From assembly GCF_006546625.1 (NCBI RefSeq), contig NZ_VIAR01000004.1, forward strand, positions 186,001 through 250,000: a DNA stretch of 64,000 nt, in the 5' to 3' direction. Source of the stretch: Haloflavibacter putidus. GTDB lineage: Bacteria; Bacteroidota; Bacteroidia; Flavobacteriales; Flavobacteriaceae. Position numbers and translations under genes: made by a program. This document shows positions 1-7,515 of the stretch, one piece after another. The notes beneath the pieces are model-generated. The model searched no databases, was not told the origin of the DNA, and saw nothing but the letters and a program-made list of their open reading frames with translations. The number at the start of each line of letters is the position of its first letter. Within the stretch, counting starts at the first letter, position 1.

Positions 1-1
1 T

Positions 2-247
2 TACCACGGCAGGTTAATGGAAGTTTTGCAAGCAATAGATTCCATTGCCTTTTCTAAATTAGACGACAGACTTTTAAAATATCTGGAGAACAAACGAAAG
101 ATAAACCAAAATTCTACAATAAATAGTACGCACCAAGAAATTGCCAGCGATTTAAATTCTTCTAGAGTGGTAATTTCTAGATTACTTAAAAAATTAGAAA
201 ACAGTGGATTTTTAAAATTGCAACGAAACAGTATAGAACTTCTTTAA
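2..247 (+). CDS. Crp/Fnr family transcriptional regulator, C-terminal part
   Basis: The reading frame is open to the left edge, so this is the tail of a gene that begins outside the window. The visible 81 residues are the C-terminal winged helix-turn-helix of a Crp/Fnr regulator: the end of the dimerisation helix, then THQEIASDLNSSRVVISRL as the recognition helix-turn-helix, then a wing ending ...QRNSIELL. The effector domain is missing, so the ligand (cAMP-like, redox, haem, persulfide) cannot be read. A TauE/SafE permease gene follows 53 bp downstream on the same strand, and a sulfur operon lies beyond. Two GTAAC-N4-GTTAC dyads at 5152-5165 and 5211-5224 are plausible targets. The family call is secure; the link to those sites is inference. 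Confidence 0.9.
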   Translation, partial: YHGRLMEVLQAIDSIAFSKLDDRLLKYLENKRKINQNSTINSTHQEIASDLNSSRVVISRLLKKLENSGFLKLQRNSIELL

Positions 248-300: not shown

Positions 301-1107
301 ATGTTAATAGAAATTCTTGGTTATATAGGCGCATTGCTAATTGGAGTGGTGTTAGGGCTAACCGGTGGCGGCGGTTCTATCTTAACCGTTCCAATTTTTG
401 TTTACGTTCTTAGTATAGAACCGGTTATTGCTACGGGTTATTCGCTTTTTGTAGTTGGTTTATCATCTTTATTTGGCACTTTTAAAAACCTTAGAAACGG
501 TATGGTAAATTATAAAGCTGCTCTGCTTTTTGCCATTCCTGCTGTAAGCGCTGTCTTTTTAACCCGCAAATTTCTTATTCCCGCCATTCCCGAAACAATT
601 GCGCAACTTGGTAAATTTACCTTGCATAAAGATATGGCAATCATGGTATTTTTTGCTGTTTTAATGTTAATTGCTTCGGTGAGTATGATAAAAACCAAAA
701 AAGAAACTACGTCAAAACAGAAAGCAGAAAAAAAATCTTCTGTAACCAATTATACTTTACTTTTAGTTTTAGGAGCTTTTACCGGATTAATTACCGGCCT
801 GGTTGGTGCTGGCGGCGGTTTTATAATTGTACCTATTTTAGTTTTACTGGCCAAGCTACCAATGAAAAAAGCTGCAGCTACTTCTTTGTTTATAATCGCT
901 ATAAACTCGCTTTTAGGTTTTCTTGGCGATGTGACAAATTTTGAAATAGATTGGATCTTCTTACTTAGCTTTTCTGCCATAGCAATAGCAGGTATTTATT
1001 TGGGTATCTATCTTAATAGATTTATTAATGGAAAAAAACTAAAGAAAGCTTTTGGTTGGCTGGTATTGGTAATGGGAATATATATTGTGTGGCGTGAACT
1101 TTTTTAA
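301..1107 (+). CDS. TauE/SafE family sulfite/organosulfur exporter-type permease
   Basis: This 268 aa integral inner-membrane protein has about eight hydrophobic segments. It carries the two glycine-rich signatures of the TauE/SafE family, LTGGGGSILTVP near residues 20-31 and GLVGAGGGFIIVP in the second half, so the internal two-fold repeat is intact and the length is typical. Family members move sulfite, sulfoacetate or other sulfur anions; the substrate here is not readable. It lies 53 bp after the Crp/Fnr tail, with a small CCAAAAA/TTTTTGG hairpin (261-277) between them. It converges on the DsrE/TlpA/SoxB-like operon across a strong terminator. The context supports export of an oxidised sulfur product or uptake of thiosulfate, but that is inference. 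Confidence 0.88.
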   Translation: MLIEILGYIGALLIGVVLGLTGGGGSILTVPIFVYVLSIEPVIATGYSLFVVGLSSLFGTFKNLRNGMVNYKAALLFAIPAVSAVFLTRKFLIPAIPETIAQLGKFTLHKDMAIMVFFAVLMLIASVSMIKTKKETTSKQKAEKKSSVTNYTLLLVLGAFTGLITGLVGAGGGFIIVPILVLLAKLPMKKAAATSLFIIAINSLLGFLGDVTNFEIDWIFLLSFSAIAIAGIYLGIYLNRFINGKKLKKAFGWLVLVMGIYIVWRELF

Positions 1108-1160: not shown

Positions 1161-1565
1161 CTATAAATCTAAGGCGTAATAGCCTTTTTCTTTGAGTTCT
1201 AACAGATAAACAAAAGCATCTTCAACCACTTCAAATTCTTTCGGAATATGTTGTTTTTGTACATCAAATTTCTTTAAAGCAATAGCGCAAGCGCTAAATT
1301 CTATAGCTTTGTGGGTTACTTTATCTAGCCATAGTTTTGTGGTAGAACTTTTATTTAAATCTTGTACGGCTTTTCCGTAAAGAACAATTTTTATTTTGCC
1401 CAGATTTTCTTTTTTATTTGCTGCCAAAGTATTGGCCGTGCCAATTATTGCCGGTACGTAATTAGGATTACCGGTAGATAATACGTAATTCTTTTCTTGA
1501 GCGTTAACGTTGGTAAAAATACTGCTCAAGACTGCTAGGAATGCAATTAGAAAAAACTTTTTCAT
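1161..1565 (-). CDS. periplasmic DsrE family protein (second copy)
   Basis: This 134 aa protein has an N-terminal signal peptide ending near VNAQ, so the mature protein should be periplasmic. The rest fits a single DsrE/DsrF fold: an alternating strand-helix pattern, KIKIVLYGKAV, and a cysteine in FSACAIALKKFDV. It aligns end to end with the DsrE protein at 3841-4287 (shared C-x(3)-LKKF-V, VVE-, L-L--KGY motifs), so the two are paralogues inside one operon. DsrE proteins are sulfur-relay carriers or folds derived from them, and the conserved cysteine is the likely persulfide site. It is last in the leftward operon, 6 bp after tlpA, just before the terminator. The family call is good; the carrier role is inferred. 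Confidence 0.8.
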   Translation of the reverse strand: MKKFFLIAFLAVLSSIFTNVNAQEKNYVLSTGNPNYVPAIIGTANTLAANKKENLGKIKIVLYGKAVQDLNKSSTTKLWLDKVTHKAIEFSACAIALKKFDVQKQHIPKEFEVVEDAFVYLLELKEKGYYALDL

Positions 1566-1571
1566 AATGTG

Positions 1572-2162
1572 TTATTTTAAATTATTGATAAAATTCTTAA
1601 ACTTTTTGGTATCATAATCAGCCATGCCTTTGTGCTCAAAAGCTATATTGCCATTTTTGTCTACAACAAAGGTGGTGGGAATACTGCGACTTTGATAAAC
1701 TCGGGGTAAATTTCCCAAAGTTTTATGTACGTCAAAATCAAACTCTTTACGGCTTTTAAACTTTTTTGCTTTTTCAAAGTTTTTATCTAGCGAAATCATT
1801 AGAAAAACCACGTCCTCATCCTTTTCAAAATGTTCGTGTAAATTATCAATGCTTGGCATTTCTGCTATGCAAGGCGGACACCAGGTTGCCCAAAAGTTTA
1901 TAAATATAACCTTGTCTTTTAAATTGGCCATATCTACTTTATTGCCATTTTGGTCTAGCAATTTAACCTTGTAACTCGCTTTTTTAGCTTTGTTGTCTTC
2001 TGTGGTTTCAGTAGTGGTATCGGGATTCATTATTCCCAGCTCTAAAACGCCTCTTTGAATAAAACCAAATACTTCTGCCCGAAGGCTTGAAGTAAATAAA
2101 ACTACCACAAAAACAATCCAAAAGCTGTAATTTCCTATTTTCTTAATTGTTTTCTTTTTCAT
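1572..2162 (-). CDS. TlpA-family thiol:disulfide oxidoreductase, membrane-anchored
   Basis: This 196 aa protein has an N-terminal membrane anchor or uncleaved signal (about residues 12-28) followed by a periplasmic thioredoxin-like domain. The active site WCPPC is at residues 94-98 in INFWATWCPPCIAEMP, and the cis-proline loop is SIPTTFVVD. Such proteins reduce or relay disulfides and persulfides in the periplasm. It sits 6 bp after the SoxB-like gene and 6 bp before the second DsrE gene, so it is translationally close-coupled. In Sox systems a periplasmic thioredoxin (SoxW/SoxS type) keeps the carrier reduced. By analogy this one may recycle the DsrE cysteine, but no partner is proven by sequence. 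Confidence 0.85.
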   Translation of the reverse strand: MKKKTIKKIGNYSFWIVFVVVLFTSSLRAEVFGFIQRGVLELGIMNPDTTTETTEDNKAKKASYKVKLLDQNGNKVDMANLKDKVIFINFWATWCPPCIAEMPSIDNLHEHFEKDEDVVFLMISLDKNFEKAKKFKSRKEFDFDVHKTLGNLPRVYQSRSIPTTFVVDKNGNIAFEHKGMADYDTKKFKNFINNLK

Positions 2163-2168
2163 GTTAAT

Positions 2169-3830
2169 TTATTTGAATTCATAATTTGTTCCGGGCACGG
2201 TAGAAAAAGAATGTTCTCCTAAAACATCGCAATAAGCCCTTTTTTCTAATTTTGGCGCTACTGGAGAGTGTTCTGCCAAATACTCTTCTACGGCATCGTG
2301 AATAGTATAATCTTTTTCCACAACATTTTTTACGTTAGTCATTCTACATAAATTGTCTATTGGATCGCCGGGACGTTTACACGCAGATATAGTGTACATT
2401 TTGTCTTCTTGTATTGGTTCTCCTGCAACGCTAATACTGTTAATTCGTTCTCCTTTTGGCGCGTTGCTGGAAAAATCTACTTTCATTCCGGAAAAACGTA
2501 CCAGCCAACCCCCAAAACGTTCGGTTGGGTTTTGTGCAAAAGCATTGTGCATTTCTTTTTCTAACCAATCTTTAATTTGTTTTCCCGAAGCTTTCCCAAC
2601 TTTTACATTTTCGTTTACCGGTAAAATATTCCATAAATTGGCTTTGGTAATGGGGGCGGGTTCTCCGTTTTGTGGTACAATTGGATTTCCAAACCTAAAG
2701 CCGTTGGAGATAGAAATATCTGCGCCGGTTTTCCATTTTGCAGCATCTGTAATCATATTATCCATGGTGTTTTCCACCGTAAGGTAGCGATATAGCGGCA
2801 CTTTTGTATAACCAATTATGCGTTCCATTTCTTTTTTATATGGTGCTTTTGCCTTTTCTACCAGGGCAGCAATTTTGGCATCTGCCGGATATTTTTTAGG
2901 ATCTACTTCTAGCAAATCATAATCTTCTTTTACAATTTTTCCATCTACAAAATGCAGCACCAATTTTCCTACAAAACTACCAAAAGCGCCGGGTTCTGTA
3001 ACGCGTGCAAATTTACCTTGTATAGGTTCGCGAATGCGCTCGTGCGTGTCATTTCCTAAAATATAATCTATATCTTTTGCAATGGGATTGTTGGCTAATT
3101 CTACTTGTTTAAAAACGCCAAAATGCGTCAGTAAAAATAAAGCATCTACCTTTTCTTCGGTTTTAAGTTTATCAATGAGATTTTTTGTAGCCGAATCTAT
3201 TCCGCTAAAAGCGATACCTTTACTAAAAATGGGGTTTTGTCTTACCGGAACATCGGGATCGTTAATGCCTATAAAACCAAGTTTTACGCCATCTACTTCC
3301 TTTATCCAATGACTTGGAAAAAGTTCTTGCTTTTCTTTTTCATGAAACATATTTTGAGCAATTACCGGCGTGTCGTAGGCGTTTAAAATTTTTAGCATCT
3401 GCGCTTTGCCATACACAACTTCCCAATTGCCGGGAATTAACAAATCATAATTCATGTTTTTTATGATTTCCGGTAAAACATCGCCCTTGGAAAGCGCGGT
3501 ATAACCACTGCCTTGAATTAAATCTCCGCCATCTACAATTATTGTGTTTTTGTTTTTGGCGCGTTCTTGATCAAACAGGGTTTTTATGTGTGCCAGACCG
3601 CCACGCTCTTTAAAAACAATTTGGTTGTTTTCCCAAAATAGTTCCGGGTGTGCGTCTAATTGTCCGTGAATATCTGCCGTTTGCAGAATGTTTATACTAA
3701 TCGTGTCTTTTTTACTTTCGGTTTTTGGTAAGTTTTCGGCAACAAGTTTTTCTTTAGAAGAAGTTTGTTTTTTGCACGAAATAAACGCTAGTAAAATTAG
3801 ACTTAAAATACTTATGTTTATCGTTTTCAT
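2169..3830 (-). CDS. SoxB-like 5'-nucleotidase-family metallophosphoesterase lipoprotein
   Basis: This 553 aa lipoprotein (lipobox ending at Cys19, LLAFISC) has an N-terminal calcineurin-like metallophosphoesterase domain and a C-terminal 5'-nucleotidase domain, the full UshA/SoxB architecture. Visible metal ligands are Asp53 and His55 (TADIHG), Asp103 (GGDLIQGSG), Asn135 in GNWE, His236 (LTHFG) and His263 in GNDTHER. Classical 5'-nucleotidases have GNHE and a GHxH-type motif. The Trp after Asn in GNWE and the DTHER motif are instead reminiscent of SoxB, the dimanganese thiosulfohydrolase that releases sulfate from a carrier cysteine. No SoxYZ, SoxAX or SoxCD is visible. The operon contains DsrE, TlpA and DoxX genes, so sulfur chemistry is more likely than nucleotide scavenging. 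An ordinary nucleotidase remains possible. Confidence 0.8.
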   Translation of the reverse strand: MKTINISILSLILLAFISCKKQTSSKEKLVAENLPKTESKKDTISINILQTADIHGQLDAHPELFWENNQIVFKERGGLAHIKTLFDQERAKNKNTIIVDGGDLIQGSGYTALSKGDVLPEIIKNMNYDLLIPGNWEVVYGKAQMLKILNAYDTPVIAQNMFHEKEKQELFPSHWIKEVDGVKLGFIGINDPDVPVRQNPIFSKGIAFSGIDSATKNLIDKLKTEEKVDALFLLTHFGVFKQVELANNPIAKDIDYILGNDTHERIREPIQGKFARVTEPGAFGSFVGKLVLHFVDGKIVKEDYDLLEVDPKKYPADAKIAALVEKAKAPYKKEMERIIGYTKVPLYRYLTVENTMDNMITDAAKWKTGADISISNGFRFGNPIVPQNGEPAPITKANLWNILPVNENVKVGKASGKQIKDWLEKEMHNAFAQNPTERFGGWLVRFSGMKVDFSSNAPKGERINSISVAGEPIQEDKMYTISACKRPGDPIDNLCRMTNVKNVVEKDYTIHDAVEEYLAEHSPVAPKLEKRAYCDVLGEHSFSTVPGTNYEFK

Positions 3831-3840
3831 TGGTGTGGTT

Positions 3841-4287
3841 TTATAATTCTATACTTTTATATCCTTTGCGTTGTAAATCTAAGTTGAAGTAAATACCGTT
3901 CTCTACAACATCTAAATCATCTGGCAAATCTTTTTGTTTTACACCGAATTTCTTTAAGGAAAATCCGCAAGCATGAATCTTAATTCCAAGTTTTTTTGCT
4001 TGATCTAGAAAAGGCTGTATACTTTTTGCATTGGTCATTTTTCGCACGGTTTTTCCGCAAACTACAATCTCGAACTTGCCAAATTTTTTGCCGTCCTCTT
4101 TTTTAATTTGTTCCGCGGCCAATAAAATTGGTTTCAGTTGTGGAATTTTTCGTGTTAAAACCACATAATTGTTCATTTTTTCTTTGGCAAGAGTTTCTGT
4201 GTGGCTTACCGCCGAAAGATTATTTTGAGCTTGCAAGCCAAAAAAGCCCACAAAGAATACTAAACTGGTTATTATTAATTTTTTCAT
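3841..4287 (-). CDS. periplasmic DsrE family protein (first copy)
   Basis: This 148 aa protein has a signal peptide (GFFGLQAQ) and a DsrE-like fold with KFEIVVCGKTV and a second cysteine in HACGFSLKKFGV. It is paralogous to the gene at 1161-1565 but has the additional cysteine in VVCGK, where the other copy has Tyr. Two cysteines could allow an intramolecular persulfide or disulfide relay; that is inference. It sits 2 bp downstream of doxX and 10 bp upstream of the SoxB-like gene. A DsrE protein next to a SoxB-like hydrolase could replace the SoxYZ carrier, which is absent here. Confidence 0.8.
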   Translation of the reverse strand: MKKLIITSLVFFVGFFGLQAQNNLSAVSHTETLAKEKMNNYVVLTRKIPQLKPILLAAEQIKKEDGKKFGKFEIVVCGKTVRKMTNAKSIQPFLDQAKKLGIKIHACGFSLKKFGVKQKDLPDDLDVVENGIYFNLDLQRKGYKSIEL

Positions 4288-4289
4288 GT

Positions 4290-4694
4290 TTATTTATTTT
4301 GTTTGATTAAAGAAATATCGTTTAGAATAAAAAATAGGAGTCCGCCCATAATGGCAATATTTTTAAATAATGGCCCAAGCGTGGTTATTTGTCCTACTTG
4401 AATGGTTAAGGTAATTGGTATGAGCACCAGCGCTAAAACTATGGCCGCATAACGTGTTTTAAATCCTATTAGTAAAGAAATACCGGCAATTAACATCACA
4501 ATTCCAGATGCGATTACCAATAATTCCGGATTGCCAAAAAATAGGGCAATTCCTTTAAAATTTGCTTGATTAATACGGTTTACGGTTTTTTCTAAATGGA
4601 TGAGGTGGTTAAAACCAGCCACCAGAAAAATGCCGCTTACCAAAATGCGCAATAGTTGCACAGAACGGTAGTTAACCGCTATGGTAAATTTCAT
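4290..4694 (-). CDS. DoxX-family membrane protein
   Basis: This 134 aa protein has four hydrophobic segments and a typical DoxX-like start: RILVSGIFLVAGFNHL, followed by GIVMLIAGISLLIGF. The family is named after the thiosulfate:quinone oxidoreductase subunit of archaea, but many bacterial members have other or unknown roles. It lies 2 bp before the DsrE gene, with its start 76 bp downstream of the 114 aa gene. No TAnnTTTG box was seen in that gap, so it is probably cotranscribed from the promoter near 5122. It may pass electrons from a sulfur compound to the quinone pool, suggested only by context. Confidence 0.8.
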   Translation of the reverse strand: MKFTIAVNYRSVQLLRILVSGIFLVAGFNHLIHLEKTVNRINQANFKGIALFFGNPELLVIASGIVMLIAGISLLIGFKTRYAAIVLALVLIPITLTIQVGQITTLGPLFKNIAIMGGLLFFILNDISLIKQNK

Positions 4695-4770: not shown

Positions 4771-5115
4771 CTATTTGGGAGGGGGTAAGTTTAAATCTTG
4801 GTACGTAAAATAATTCTGAAGTTTTGGCTCTTTAAAAAGTTTACGTTTTGGGGGAGTCATTTTGGAAAGTTCTTCAAAATTCTTCAGTAAAATAGGAGTA
4901 ACACAAACCGCTTGAAAATTAAGTGTATGTGATATGCTTTGTTTTTTAAAGTCGGTTGTATCTTGATCTGTTGGATAATTTTTTTCGCAAAACGGATTGC
5001 TAAACGAAATAACATTTTCGTCAAGCATAAATTGCATGGTTTTTGCTTCAACCATCACAACCTTGGCCATAAAGAGCCAAACTAAAAAGAATGCTATAGA
5101 GTTTTTCCAATTCAT
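4771..5115 (-). CDS. conserved-looking small membrane-anchored protein of unknown function, first gene of sulfur operon
   Basis: I chose the start at Met 5115 (MNWKNSIAFFLVW) because an upstream in-frame ATG at 5142 would lie above the predicted -7 box. This gives 114 aa: one N-terminal hydrophobic segment (about residues 6-23), then a polar domain with two cysteines (NPFCEKNY and QAVCVTP) and a proline-rich tail ending LPPPK. I do not recognise the family. Position as the first gene under the predicted Crp-type operator suggests a role in sensing or handling the same sulfur species, and the two cysteines would fit that. The predicted transcript start is only a few bases from the ATG, so the mRNA may be nearly leaderless. 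Confidence 0.6.
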   Translation of the reverse strand: MNWKNSIAFFLVWLFMAKVVMVEAKTMQFMLDENVISFSNPFCEKNYPTDQDTTDFKKQSISHTLNFQAVCVTPILLKNFEELSKMTPPKRKLFKEPKLQNYFTYQDLNLPPPK

Positions 5116-5121
5116 TGAAAT

Positions 5122-5129
5122 CAAAGATA
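5122..5129 (-). promoter_or_regulatory. -7 promoter box TATCTTTG for the leftward sulfur operon
   Basis: On the minus strand this reads TATCTTTG, a perfect TAnnTTTG box. No TTG -33 element is present at the usual 17-23 bp distance; its place is taken by the dyad at 5152-5165. That pattern fits an activator-dependent promoter. Confidence 0.6.
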
Positions 5130-5151
5130 CACAAGATTGCAACTTACTTGC

Positions 5152-5165
5152 GTAACTTTGGTTAC
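5152..5165. promoter_or_regulatory. Crp/Fnr-type dyad GTAACTTTGGTTAC (leftward operator)
   Basis: Perfect 5+5 dyad with a 4 bp spacer, the geometry of an FNR or Crp half-site pair. Its centre is about 41 bp upstream of the start predicted from the 5122-5129 box, the class II activation position. The same dyad recurs at 5211. Confidence 0.65.
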
Positions 5166-5210
5166 ACTCTTTGTTTTTTAAGGAAAAACACCATACTTTA
5201 TTGGTTTAAT

Positions 5211-5224
5211 GTAACTATGGTTAC
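5211..5224. promoter_or_regulatory. Crp/Fnr-type dyad GTAACTATGGTTAC (rightward operator)
   Basis: Second copy of GTAAC-N4-GTTAC, 59 bp from the first. Its centre lies about 41 bp upstream of the start predicted from the TAAATTTG box at 5247-5254. The two copies therefore sit symmetrically, one for each divergent promoter. Confidence 0.65.
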
Positions 5225-5246
5225 CTATTTACTCTAAGATATTTTT

Positions 5247-5254
5247 TAAATTTG
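5247..5254 (+). promoter_or_regulatory. -7 promoter box TAAATTTG for the rightward pair
   Basis: Perfect TAnnTTTG box 16 bp before the ATG at 5271. No -33 TTG is seen; the dyad at 5211-5224 occupies that region. The leader would be only about 12 nt. Confidence 0.6.
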
Positions 5255-5270
5255 TTACGCGTAATAAAAT

Positions 5271-6203
5271 ATGGAGAAGTACTGGACAATTTTTCAAAAT
5301 TCGTTTAGCGGCTATTTTAATTATTTGGTTAATGAAATAGCCAATCCGTCGTGGACCAATTATTTTTATTGGCTGCTGGTTCTTTCTTTGGCGGTTTGGG
5401 TGGTAGAAATAGTTTTACCTTGGCGGAAAAACCAAAAAATATTTCGAAAAGACTTTTGGTTAGACAGTTTTTATATTCTCTTCAACTTTTTCTTATTTTC
5501 TTTAATTGGTTATAACGCGATTTCTAATGTTGGCGTAGAGTTGTTTACCGATTTTCTAAATATATTTGGAGTTAGTAATATTGTAGCAATAGAAGTGCAA
5601 AACTTGCCAACTTGGGTGCAACTACTAATTATGTTTGTTATAGCAGATTTTATACAGTGGAATGTACACCGGCAATTACACAAACAACCTTGGCTTTGGA
5701 AATACCACCAAGTACACCACAGTATTAAAGAAATGGGATTTGCAGCGCAATTTCGGTTTCATTTTATGGAAACTATTTTTTATAAAAGCGCGCAATATAT
5801 TCCGTTGGCAATGATAGGTTTTGGTATTAAAGAATTTATTATTGTACATATGTTTGCCGTTTTAATAGGGCATTTAAATCACGCCAATGTAGGCTGGGAT
5901 TATGGTATTTTCGGGTATATTTTTAACAACCCAAAAATGCATATTTGGCATCACGCCAAAGCCTTGCCGCAAGAACATCCGCAGGGTATGAATTTCGGTT
6001 TGAGCTTGAGTATTTGGGATTATCTTTTTGGAACTGCTTATATTCCCCAAGACGGTAAAAATATAGAATTGGGGTTTGCCGGCGATGAAGATTTTCCGCA
6101 AAGCTTTAAAAAACAACTATTGTATCCGTTTGATAAAAACAAACCTTTACTATTTAAATTTAAAAAAATAAAAACTACAAATTATGAAGATAAAACAGTT
6201 TAA
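5271..6203 (+). CDS. sterol desaturase / fatty acid hydroxylase superfamily membrane protein
   Basis: This 310 aa protein has several transmembrane segments and the three histidine clusters of the membrane di-iron hydroxylase superfamily: HRQLH (133-137), HQVHH (146-150) and HIWHH (224-228), with further His at 164, 201 and 204. The iron ligands are complete, so it should be an active oxygenase or hydroxylase, but the substrate is unknown. It is the first gene of the rightward arm, and its last 20 bp overlap the start of the persulfide dioxygenase gene, so the two are translationally coupled. A lipid hydroxylase co-controlled with persulfide oxidation is unexpected. A role in membrane adaptation to sulfide or in oxidising a sulfur species is speculation. 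Confidence 0.85.
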   Translation: MEKYWTIFQNSFSGYFNYLVNEIANPSWTNYFYWLLVLSLAVWVVEIVLPWRKNQKIFRKDFWLDSFYILFNFFLFSLIGYNAISNVGVELFTDFLNIFGVSNIVAIEVQNLPTWVQLLIMFVIADFIQWNVHRQLHKQPWLWKYHQVHHSIKEMGFAAQFRFHFMETIFYKSAQYIPLAMIGFGIKEFIIVHMFAVLIGHLNHANVGWDYGIFGYIFNNPKMHIWHHAKALPQEHPQGMNFGLSLSIWDYLFGTAYIPQDGKNIELGFAGDEDFPQSFKKQLLYPFDKNKPLLFKFKKIKTTNYEDKTV

Positions 6204-7515
6204 AGACGATGCTTTGGCACATTTTTCCTACGCTATTATTAGTAAGCAAAAAATGGCTGTAGTAGATCCGGCCAGAGATCCAAAACAATACTATAAGTTT
6301 GCAGAAGAAAATAACGCTCAGATTGTAGCTATTTTTGAAACGCATCCGCACGCAGATTTTGTGAGCAGCCATTACCAAATACATAAAGAAACCGGAGCAA
6401 CAATATATGCTAGCGAAAAATTGGGAGCAGACTATCCGCACCAAGGTTTTGACGATGGAGCATCTTTTAAAATGGGAGATATTGAATTTTCTGCTATCAA
6501 CACGCCTGGACATTCGCCAGATAGCATAAGCATTATTGCAGACGATGGTAAAGAAAAAGCAGCGTTTACCGGCGATACTTTATTTATCGGGAATGTAGGA
6601 AGGCCAGACTTACGCGAAAAAGCCGGTAATATGAGAGCTAAACGCGAAGAATTGGCGGAGCAAATGTACCATACTATGCAAAATAAATATACAGATTTAC
6701 CAGACGAAACTTTGGTTTATCCTGCACACGGCGCGGGTTCGCTTTGCGGAAAAAACATGAGCGATGCTTCTTCTAGTACGTTAGGACGAGAGCGTATGAG
6801 CAATTGGGCTTTTCAAAAGCAAAGTGAAGAAGAATTTGTCGAAGAATTATTGAAAGACCAACCAATGATTCCGCATTATTTTGGTTTTGACGTAGACACC
6901 AATAAAACCGGTGCCGAAAACTATGCAAAAAGTATTGGAGCTGTTCCTGTTTTGATAAATGTAGATAAATTGGAAGAGCAATATTTGGTTGTAGATATTC
7001 GGGAGGAAGAAGAATTTAAACAAAATCATCTGGGAAACAGCATAAATATTATGGGAGTAAAAGACAGCCATAAGCTAGAAACCTGGTTGGGTGCAATTGT
7101 AAAACCAGATGAGAAATTTTATGTGGTAGTGCCATCTGTAAACGACATGGAAAATATTTTAAGCCGAATTGCAAAAATTGGTTATGAAAAAAATATTAAA
7201 GCTATTGTAACTATAACCGGCAATTTGCAGAAAGATGCTGAATTAGATTTAGAAGCTTTTAAAAACAACAAAGATGCTTACACCATTGTAGATATTAGAA
7301 ATGCTCCCGAAGTAGCAGAAGGTGAAATTTTTGACTCTGCAGTGGCAATTCCGTTACACGAATTACGCGAACGTACAGACGAAATTCCTACTGATAAACC
7401 CATAGTGGTGCATTGTGCGGGAGGTTATCGTAGTGCTGCGGGCAGTAGCATTTTAGATAATAAACTAGATAAAAAAGTATATGATTTAAGCGATGCTATA
7501 GAGCAATTTAAGTAA
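6184..7515 (+). CDS. CstB-like persulfide dioxygenase-pseudorhodanese-rhodanese fusion
   Basis: This 443 aa cytoplasmic protein has three domains. Residues 1-225 form an ETHE1-type metallo-beta-lactamase fold with H54-x-H56-x-D58, His110, Asp131 (TGDTLFIGNVGRPD) and His182 (PAHGAGSLCGK), the single-iron persulfide dioxygenase signature. Residues 260-345 are rhodanese-like (VVDIREEEEF) but have VVVPSVND where the catalytic cysteine should be, so this domain is inactive. Residues 365-443 are a rhodanese with intact Cys411 in VVHCAGGYRSA. Length and order match staphylococcal CstB (444 aa), which turns persulfide into thiosulfate. Cys188 lies in the loop where CstB has a second functional cysteine. 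It overlaps the upstream gene by 20 bp and ends at a strong terminator. The product would be thiosulfate, a possible substrate for the SoxB-like arm. Confidence 0.88.
   Translation: MKIKQFKDDALAHFSYAIISKQKMAVVDPARDPKQYYKFAEENNAQIVAIFETHPHADFVSSHYQIHKETGATIYASEKLGADYPHQGFDDGASFKMGDIEFSAINTPGHSPDSISIIADDGKEKAAFTGDTLFIGNVGRPDLREKAGNMRAKREELAEQMYHTMQNKYTDLPDETLVYPAHGAGSLCGKNMSDASSSTLGRERMSNWAFQKQSEEEFVEELLKDQPMIPHYFGFDVDTNKTGAENYAKSIGAVPVLINVDKLEEQYLVVDIREEEEFKQNHLGNSINIMGVKDSHKLETWLGAIVKPDEKFYVVVPSVNDMENILSRIAKIGYEKNIKAIVTITGNLQKDAELDLEAFKNNKDAYTIVDIRNAPEVAEGEIFDSAVAIPLHELRERTDEIPTDKPIVVHCAGGYRSAAGSSILDNKLDKKVYDLSDAIEQFK

Follow-up and report, generated by a model that had tools for sequence, protein, structure and literature searches.

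Putative class II Crp/Fnr sites at a divergent locus of Haloflavibacter putidus and a proposed sulfide regulon in Flavobacteriaceae

Two divergent gene arms in a 64,000-nucleotide stretch of the Haloflavibacter putidus genome, here called the window, flank the region between positions 5116 and 5270, which raises the question of how both arms are controlled and by which protein. An initial annotation had proposed a divergent sulfur regulon driven by a pair of Crp/Fnr-type dyads. We favor, with a probability of roughly 0.85, two independent class II sites, the neighboring Crp/Fnr protein as their regulator and a sulfide/persulfide regulon. Dyads, spacing, target genes and regulator co-occurrence are shown at the level of sequence; binding, activation and start sites are inferred. 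The locus comprises the following features:

1..247, plus strand: 3' part of a Crp/Fnr-family regulator gene, proposed activator (PF00027 9.5e-13, HTH_Crp_2 4.4e-08)
301..1107, plus strand: gene of the TauE/SafE (sulfite exporter) family, following the regulator gene (PF01925 1.8e-45)
1161..4694, minus strand: further minus-arm genes (small protein without family match, ResA/TlpA-like thioredoxin, SoxB-like hydrolase, DsrE-type, DoxX)
4774..5115, minus strand: first minus-arm gene, 114 aa, no family match
5122..5129, minus strand: -7 box TATCTTTG, inferred +1 at 5117
5152..5165, minus strand: dyad GTAAC-N4-GTTAC, putative class II activator site, centre -41.5 from the inferred +1
5211..5224, plus strand: dyad GTAAC-N4-GTTAC, putative class II activator site, centre -41.5 from the inferred +1
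5247..5254, plus strand: -7 box TAAATTTG, inferred +1 at 5259
5271..6203, plus strand: first plus-arm gene, fatty acid hydroxylase / sterol desaturase family (PF04116 3.4e-28)
6184..7515, plus strand: metallo-beta-lactamase (MBL) and rhodanese protein, persulfide-dioxygenase/sulfurtransferase-like (PF00753, PF00581)

The dyads annotated initially, GTAACTTTGGTTAC on the minus arm and GTAACTATGGTTAC on the plus arm, were both recovered and are the only exact GTAAC-N4-GTTAC dyads in the window, compared with a mean of 0.06 in shuffled sequences. The two annotated TAnnTTTG boxes were found in place as well. On either arm, 22 nt separate the dyad from its own box. Start-site mapping in Flavobacterium psychrophilum located TAnnTTTG at -12 to -5 (PMC9723704). 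When this box position is applied to the window, starts are inferred at 5117 (minus) and 5259 (plus), which have not been mapped. From the 22-nt gap and the mapped Flavobacterium box position it follows that both dyad centres lie at -41.5 from the inferred +1. The distance of about 41 bp claimed before is thereby refined, and the proposed class II Crp/Fnr geometry is met on both arms with respect to the inferred starts. The lack of a -33 element is also confirmed. Neither box has a TTTG at the usual -33 distance, since the GTTAC half of the dyad fills that place. Among the matches listed for the family genomes, a TTTG at a spacer of 16-18, where possible, occurred at only 1 of 116 gap-22 sites.

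The start codon of the plus arm (5271) is positioned 12 nt past its inferred start and that of the minus arm (5115) 2 nt past, which makes the 114-aa gene near-leaderless if the transferred box position holds. At all seven sites at which the 114-aa family comes first, window included, the ATG is found 5-9 nt past the box. Gene order and close spacing lead us to infer that the minus-arm genes make up one operon. Its SoxB-like hydrolase (2169-3830) scored 253.7 bits with TIGR04486, under the cut-off of 550, and no SoxA, X, Y or Z was found among the neighboring proteins scanned. On the plus arm, the MBL/rhodanese protein reached 51 bits with the Blh model, far under the cut-off of 625. The fatty acid hydroxylase family takes the second place, after TauE, in four relatives (L113, L163, L174 and L191). 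At 150-310, ahead of the window's own TauE/SafE gene, no gap-22 site was found.

Do the two dyads act together? In the sister locus L240 they lie about 340 bases further apart, and each retains its own box and arm, indicating that they are independent units; cooperation between the two was rejected on account of these extra bases. A blastn comparison with the 12 nearest loci gave matches confined to the inside of the plus-arm gene for L241-L245 and no match for L246-L251. Based on this comparison and on L240, the divergent pair is two standard units combined locally. The additional sequence between the arms of the sister locus (L240:11737-12072), missing from the window, carries short direct repeats (TAAAATTTTACG-like) and no convincing ORF, none exceeding 43 aa.

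A genome-wide search for the dyad, as suggested in the initial annotation, revealed 10 exact copies in the 2.9 Mb genome and 5 copies of the reversed control pattern. Three dyads reside inside genes (read as rpsE, atpC and dnaJ) and have at most three of six box letters at gap 22. The other seven precede genes, many of them sulfur-related, and show, on one side, a box at gap 22 that matches in 4-6 of its 6 fixed letters: four boxes are perfect, two match in five of six letters and one (cytochrome c) in only four. The chance of at least four perfect boxes is about 2e-9, that of seven boxes with at least four letters 2e-4. Two of the seven sites are the window arms with the MBL/rhodanese operon and the SoxB-like/DsrE operon. 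The others precede:

C1: SQR-like gene, box TAAATTCG (NF049943 64.3 bits, under the cut-off of 525)
C22: TolC gene with RND genes, box TATCTTTG
C22: TilS-DsbD genes, box TATATTTG
C33: cytochrome c gene near a cytochrome bd gene, box TAACTTGC, the weakest of the seven
C33: rhodanese gene, box TTACTTTG

The names RND, TilS, DsbD and CydA were assigned by reading the sequence. The TilS-like/DsbD-like pair is an unexpected member for a sulfur regulon; ahead of such a pair, a perfect dyad-N22-TATATTTG at L010:2887-2930 overlaps the end of the preceding gene. A perfect box combined with a dyad of two mismatches marks an eighth candidate, located ahead of a gene read as DUF983; this family follows 3 of 135 sites among the matches listed for the own genome and relatives. 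When up to three mismatches over dyad and box were allowed in the own genome, no excess was observed (49 versus 56 control matches), so that weaker regulon members are indistinguishable from chance. The signal resides in near-exact matches.

That a spacing match on both sides is hard to attribute to chance had been argued from the window alone, and the relatives bear this out with a peak at gap 22. When gaps of 10-36 were allowed, the dyad-box pair matched 208 times, with 85 of 120 family genomes represented, compared with 42 matches in 34 genomes for the reversed control. Among the 150 matches listed (62 genomes; the other 58 of the 208 are not among them), the gap was 22 in 116, 21 in 12, 23 in 6 and a different one in 16. 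The same peak appeared in named Crp loci. For the best 80 of 162, the gap was 22 in 76 of 78 pairs, with at least one exact site in 55 loci, and a reversed-letter control on these best 80 of 162 displayed three pairs, all with gap 26. The 25 loci of this set (best 80 of 162) that lack an exact site contained 36 relaxed sites at gap 22, distributed over 21 loci, versus at most four at any other gap. The two samples are not independent, because some named loci belong to genomes of the family set (e.g. a 3,142,700-base Altibacter contig), and the relatedness of the genomes likewise precludes independent counts. In a sample of the phylum, 22 of 148 genomes contained the arrangement when every gap from 10 to 36 was admitted. 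Gap-22 matches in G121, G126, G160 and G218, all outside Flavobacteriaceae, demonstrate that it is not confined to this family.

Two further observations concern the sites in relatives. An uncultured Tenacibaculum carries five tandem 215-nt units with gap-22 dyads and TAACTTAG boxes upstream of its Crp gene (L301:4805-5872) and two more gap-22 dyad sites with TAACTTAG boxes at 4548 and 4698. The more distant orthologues L220-L239 are accompanied by degenerate sites (e.g. GTAACN4ATTAC, GTGACN4GTCAC; gap 21-22), which precede genes resembling YeeE and MBL proteins.

Which genes stand behind these sites? The 112 regions fetched represent 130 sites at gaps 21-23 outside the own genome among the matches listed; the 16 matches with other gaps were left out. 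Together with the own genome the set comprised 137 sites, 135 of them followed by an ORF, and the three own-genome boxes with the weakest match (those of the SQR-like, rhodanese and cytochrome c genes) entered it via a looser, purpose-written pattern. All counts that follow refer to these 135 first genes among the matches listed. They start at a median of 20 nt past the box and within 30 nt in 107 cases. Assignment by Pfam, in which one protein may score in several families, yielded rhodanese (33), TauE (28), outer-membrane efflux (22), MBL (20), Sulf_transp (6) and SulP (4). Clustering grouped them into MBL/rhodanese proteins (33), TauE (28), TolC (22), homologues of the 114-aa protein (7, window included), YeeE (6), cytochrome c (6), cluster c14 (5, probably the five Thioredoxin_9 matches), SulP (4), fatty acid hydroxylases (4, window included), DUF983 (3) and smaller groups. 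No evident sulfur role is apparent for TolC, whose TolC-RND genes form the largest such group, nor for the cytochrome c, c14, fatty acid hydroxylase and DUF983 clusters, CydA (2), aldehyde dehydrogenase (2) and five singletons. The target-family counts lack a random-gene control. Within this limit, the postulated link to sulfur genes holds: in the own genome and in relatives, dyads outside coding genes precede genes of which many are sulfur-handling.

The Crp/Fnr gene, which indeed ends at position 247, is complete when the upstream genome is included (208 aa, L005:2622-3248), and it had been put forward as a natural candidate regulator. Where an orthologue reached E <1e-66, 69 of 72 genomes had the arrangement; the figure was 13 of 23 for an orthologue between 1e-66 and 1e-50 and 3 of 25 for a weaker one or none (Fisher 3.6e-12, first two classes versus third; the classes were chosen after the data had been seen). 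The reversed control rises less steeply over the same classes (24/72, 7/23 and 3/25). As it is also more common with an orthologue (24/72 versus 3/25), part of the association may stem from genome size or composition. Among the three exceptions without a close orthologue, the gap is 22 in G010 and in G088; the site in G088, an 87% complete genome, precedes a TolC gene. Ten of the 23 genomes of the middle class lack the exact pattern, yet the regulator locus of each holds a site at gap 21 or 22 that deviates in at most two letters, with 16 variant matches at gaps 21-22 versus 9 at 25 other gaps. No site with at most two mismatches was detected at gaps 21-23 in L230, L231 and L232, which have a close orthologue and no pattern. 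Of the best 80 of 162 loci, 68 contain a gap-22 site (at most two mismatches in all) no more than 250 nt past the 3' end of the regulator gene, compared with 0-4 at other gaps; beside the regulator gene of the window genome and of its sister L240 no such site was found. Co-occurrence, recognition helix and nearby gap-22 sites make the neighboring gene the best candidate, although binding is untested.

The protein shares 98% identity with its counterpart in an uncultured Mesonia and belongs to the Crp/Fnr superfamily (PF00027 48.4 bits, cut-off 27.5; PF13545 33.4, cut-off 27; PF00325 24.2, cut-off 21), and its predicted fold matches CRP structures. The best PDB match by sequence (9.1e-16) and by fold was 3dv8, a Crp/Fnr-family protein of Eubacterium rectale titled putative, with 25% identity in the structural alignment. 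The protein did not qualify as a cAMP-responsive CRP by the NCBIfam equivalog (47.4 bits versus 266), nor as an FNR with iron-sulfur cluster (28.4 bits versus 228), its only cysteines being 77, 83 and 84. In the recognition helix S-S-R-V-V-I-S-R, residues R180, V181 and R185 are nearly invariant; V181 is shared by 68 of the 70 proteins in the alignment, among them the own copy, and only two distant paralogues deviate. Cys77 is conserved in 69, Cys83 in 65 and Cys84 in 64 of the 70 proteins, as expected of a thiol-based persulfide sensor. The Cys83-Cys84 pair is missing in a few orthologues and in the two distant paralogues. The structure model (pLDDT 85.6, pTM 0.59) was based on 62 of the 70 proteins plus the own copy and places Cys83 and Cys84 in a predicted helix (79-86). 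Judged by eye, all three cysteines are situated in the domain region that holds cAMP in CRP.

According to the mechanism that we propose, a Crp/Fnr-family dimer, most likely the protein encoded 5 kb away, would bind GTAAC-N4-GTTAC 41.5 bp upstream of the start, at the place of the -33 element, and would bring the RNA polymerase of flavobacteria to a TAnnTTTG box without such an element. The predicted regulon of the own genome would consist of the SQR-like gene, the MBL/rhodanese operon, the rhodanese gene, the SoxB-like/DsrE/DoxX operon, the TolC-RND efflux operon, cytochrome c and TilS-DsbD, a content that points to sulfide and persulfide handling. Reactive sulfur appears the most likely signal because the gene content overlaps the FisR, BigR and CstR regulons. 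As a weaker inference, the effector pocket would sense persulfide or sulfide through its cysteines 77, 83 and 84. Our more specific proposal remains tentative, with chances slightly below even: the pocket would have traded the cyclic nucleotide for a cysteine trio (C-x5-CC), the persulfidation of which would trigger a family-wide class II regulon joining SQR, persulfide dioxygenases, TauE/YeeE/SulP transport and the TolC-RND pump.

The switch itself is the point at which a different explanation is possible, even if unlikely: sites and regulator may be identified correctly and respond to heme via Cys77, to another ligand or to a redox signal instead of cysteine persulfide. CooA also has a cysteine in use in this region, and Cys77 is the sole fully invariant cysteine of the 63 aligned proteins, Cys83 and Cys84 being less strictly kept. 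By eye, Cys77 aligns with Met68 of the Porphyromonas HcpR, which was mutated in a heme study, as judged from a primer sequence (PMC12750200). However, the only invariant histidine, His171, belongs to the helix-turn-helix and thus leaves no obvious second heme ligand, and the target genes point to reactive sulfur. Heme also enters through a related alternative, namely that an HcpR-type regulon for nitrosative stress, heme and NO owns the sites. The Porphyromonas HcpR is heme-dependent (PMC12750200), and the published HcpR2 consensus upstream of hcp in genomes with HcpR2 is GTAACnnnnGTTAC, the very motif of the window system, so that the motif is already known (PMC1274295). The two systems further share a Crp/Fnr-family regulator in which residue 181 is no longer Glu, a change that Rodionov et al. 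(2005) tied to the GTAAC motif (PMC1274295). HcpR2 nevertheless controls hcp and has Pro181, whereas the window regulator has Val181 and many sulfur targets (PMC1274295). A search for hcp (PF03063, E up to 0.001) was negative in all 120 family genomes, of which 100 reach a completeness of 90% or more, and positive in 5 of 14 control genomes. The HcpR/hcp reading was rejected on this ground, and we regard an HcpR-type regulon as very unlikely.

Four cNMP-domain proteins are encoded in the own genome, and another Crp/Fnr paralogue could bind the dyads with the neighboring gene as a bystander. Against this, the other three proteins keep E181 in a reading by eye, and it is the change of Glu181 that accompanies the GTAAC motif (PMC1274295). 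The paralogue C49, the only one of the three followed into relatives, was rejected as regulator, with close orthologues (E <1e-40) in only 26 of 120 genomes and E181 in its helix. A paralogue is highly improbable in our view. Hardly any credence is given to the dyads as repressor sites or functionless chance repeats. The three intragenic copies among the ten genomic dyads do look like chance, but the spacing peak at 22 and the position of the dyad at the place of the -33 element fit activation and neither repression nor chance. We therefore retain the class II reading with the Crp/Fnr neighbor as regulator.

For Flavobacteriaceae, abundant marine heterotrophs, this provides a concrete and easily testable sulfide regulon with a candidate regulator, a binding site and a promoter geometry. 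For promoters of Bacteroidota, about whose activators little is known, it also offers a strict class II rule that sets the dyad 22 nt from TAnnTTTG, and it suggests that an RND efflux pump takes part in the sulfide response. The same arrangement in related bacteria, ahead of genes for moving or detoxifying sulfur, suggests a widespread sulfide-response system with a little-known regulator. Our literature search, limited to open-licence papers, did not reveal any published sulfide regulon under a Crp/Fnr protein in Bacteroidota, Flavobacteriaceae included. If the cysteine mechanism proves true, this kind of persulfide sensor would be one that is absent from the consulted review passages on known sensors.

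Class II control as such is textbook knowledge, and SqrR/BigR are members of the ArsR family. At E. coli CRP/FNR class II promoters the dyad is centred at -41.5 and the regulator replaces the upstream promoter element; the window system differs in the Bacteroidota -7 box TAnnTTTG with its sigma factor and in the half-site. SQR, persulfide dioxygenase, sulfurtransferase and YeeE/YedE are target functions shared with the FisR, SqrR/BigR and CstR regulons, and FisR is described as a sigma54-dependent activator and CstR as CsoR-like (PMC7315123, PMC8148161). Unlike all of these, the system of the window would employ a Crp/Fnr-family protein at a proposed class II promoter.
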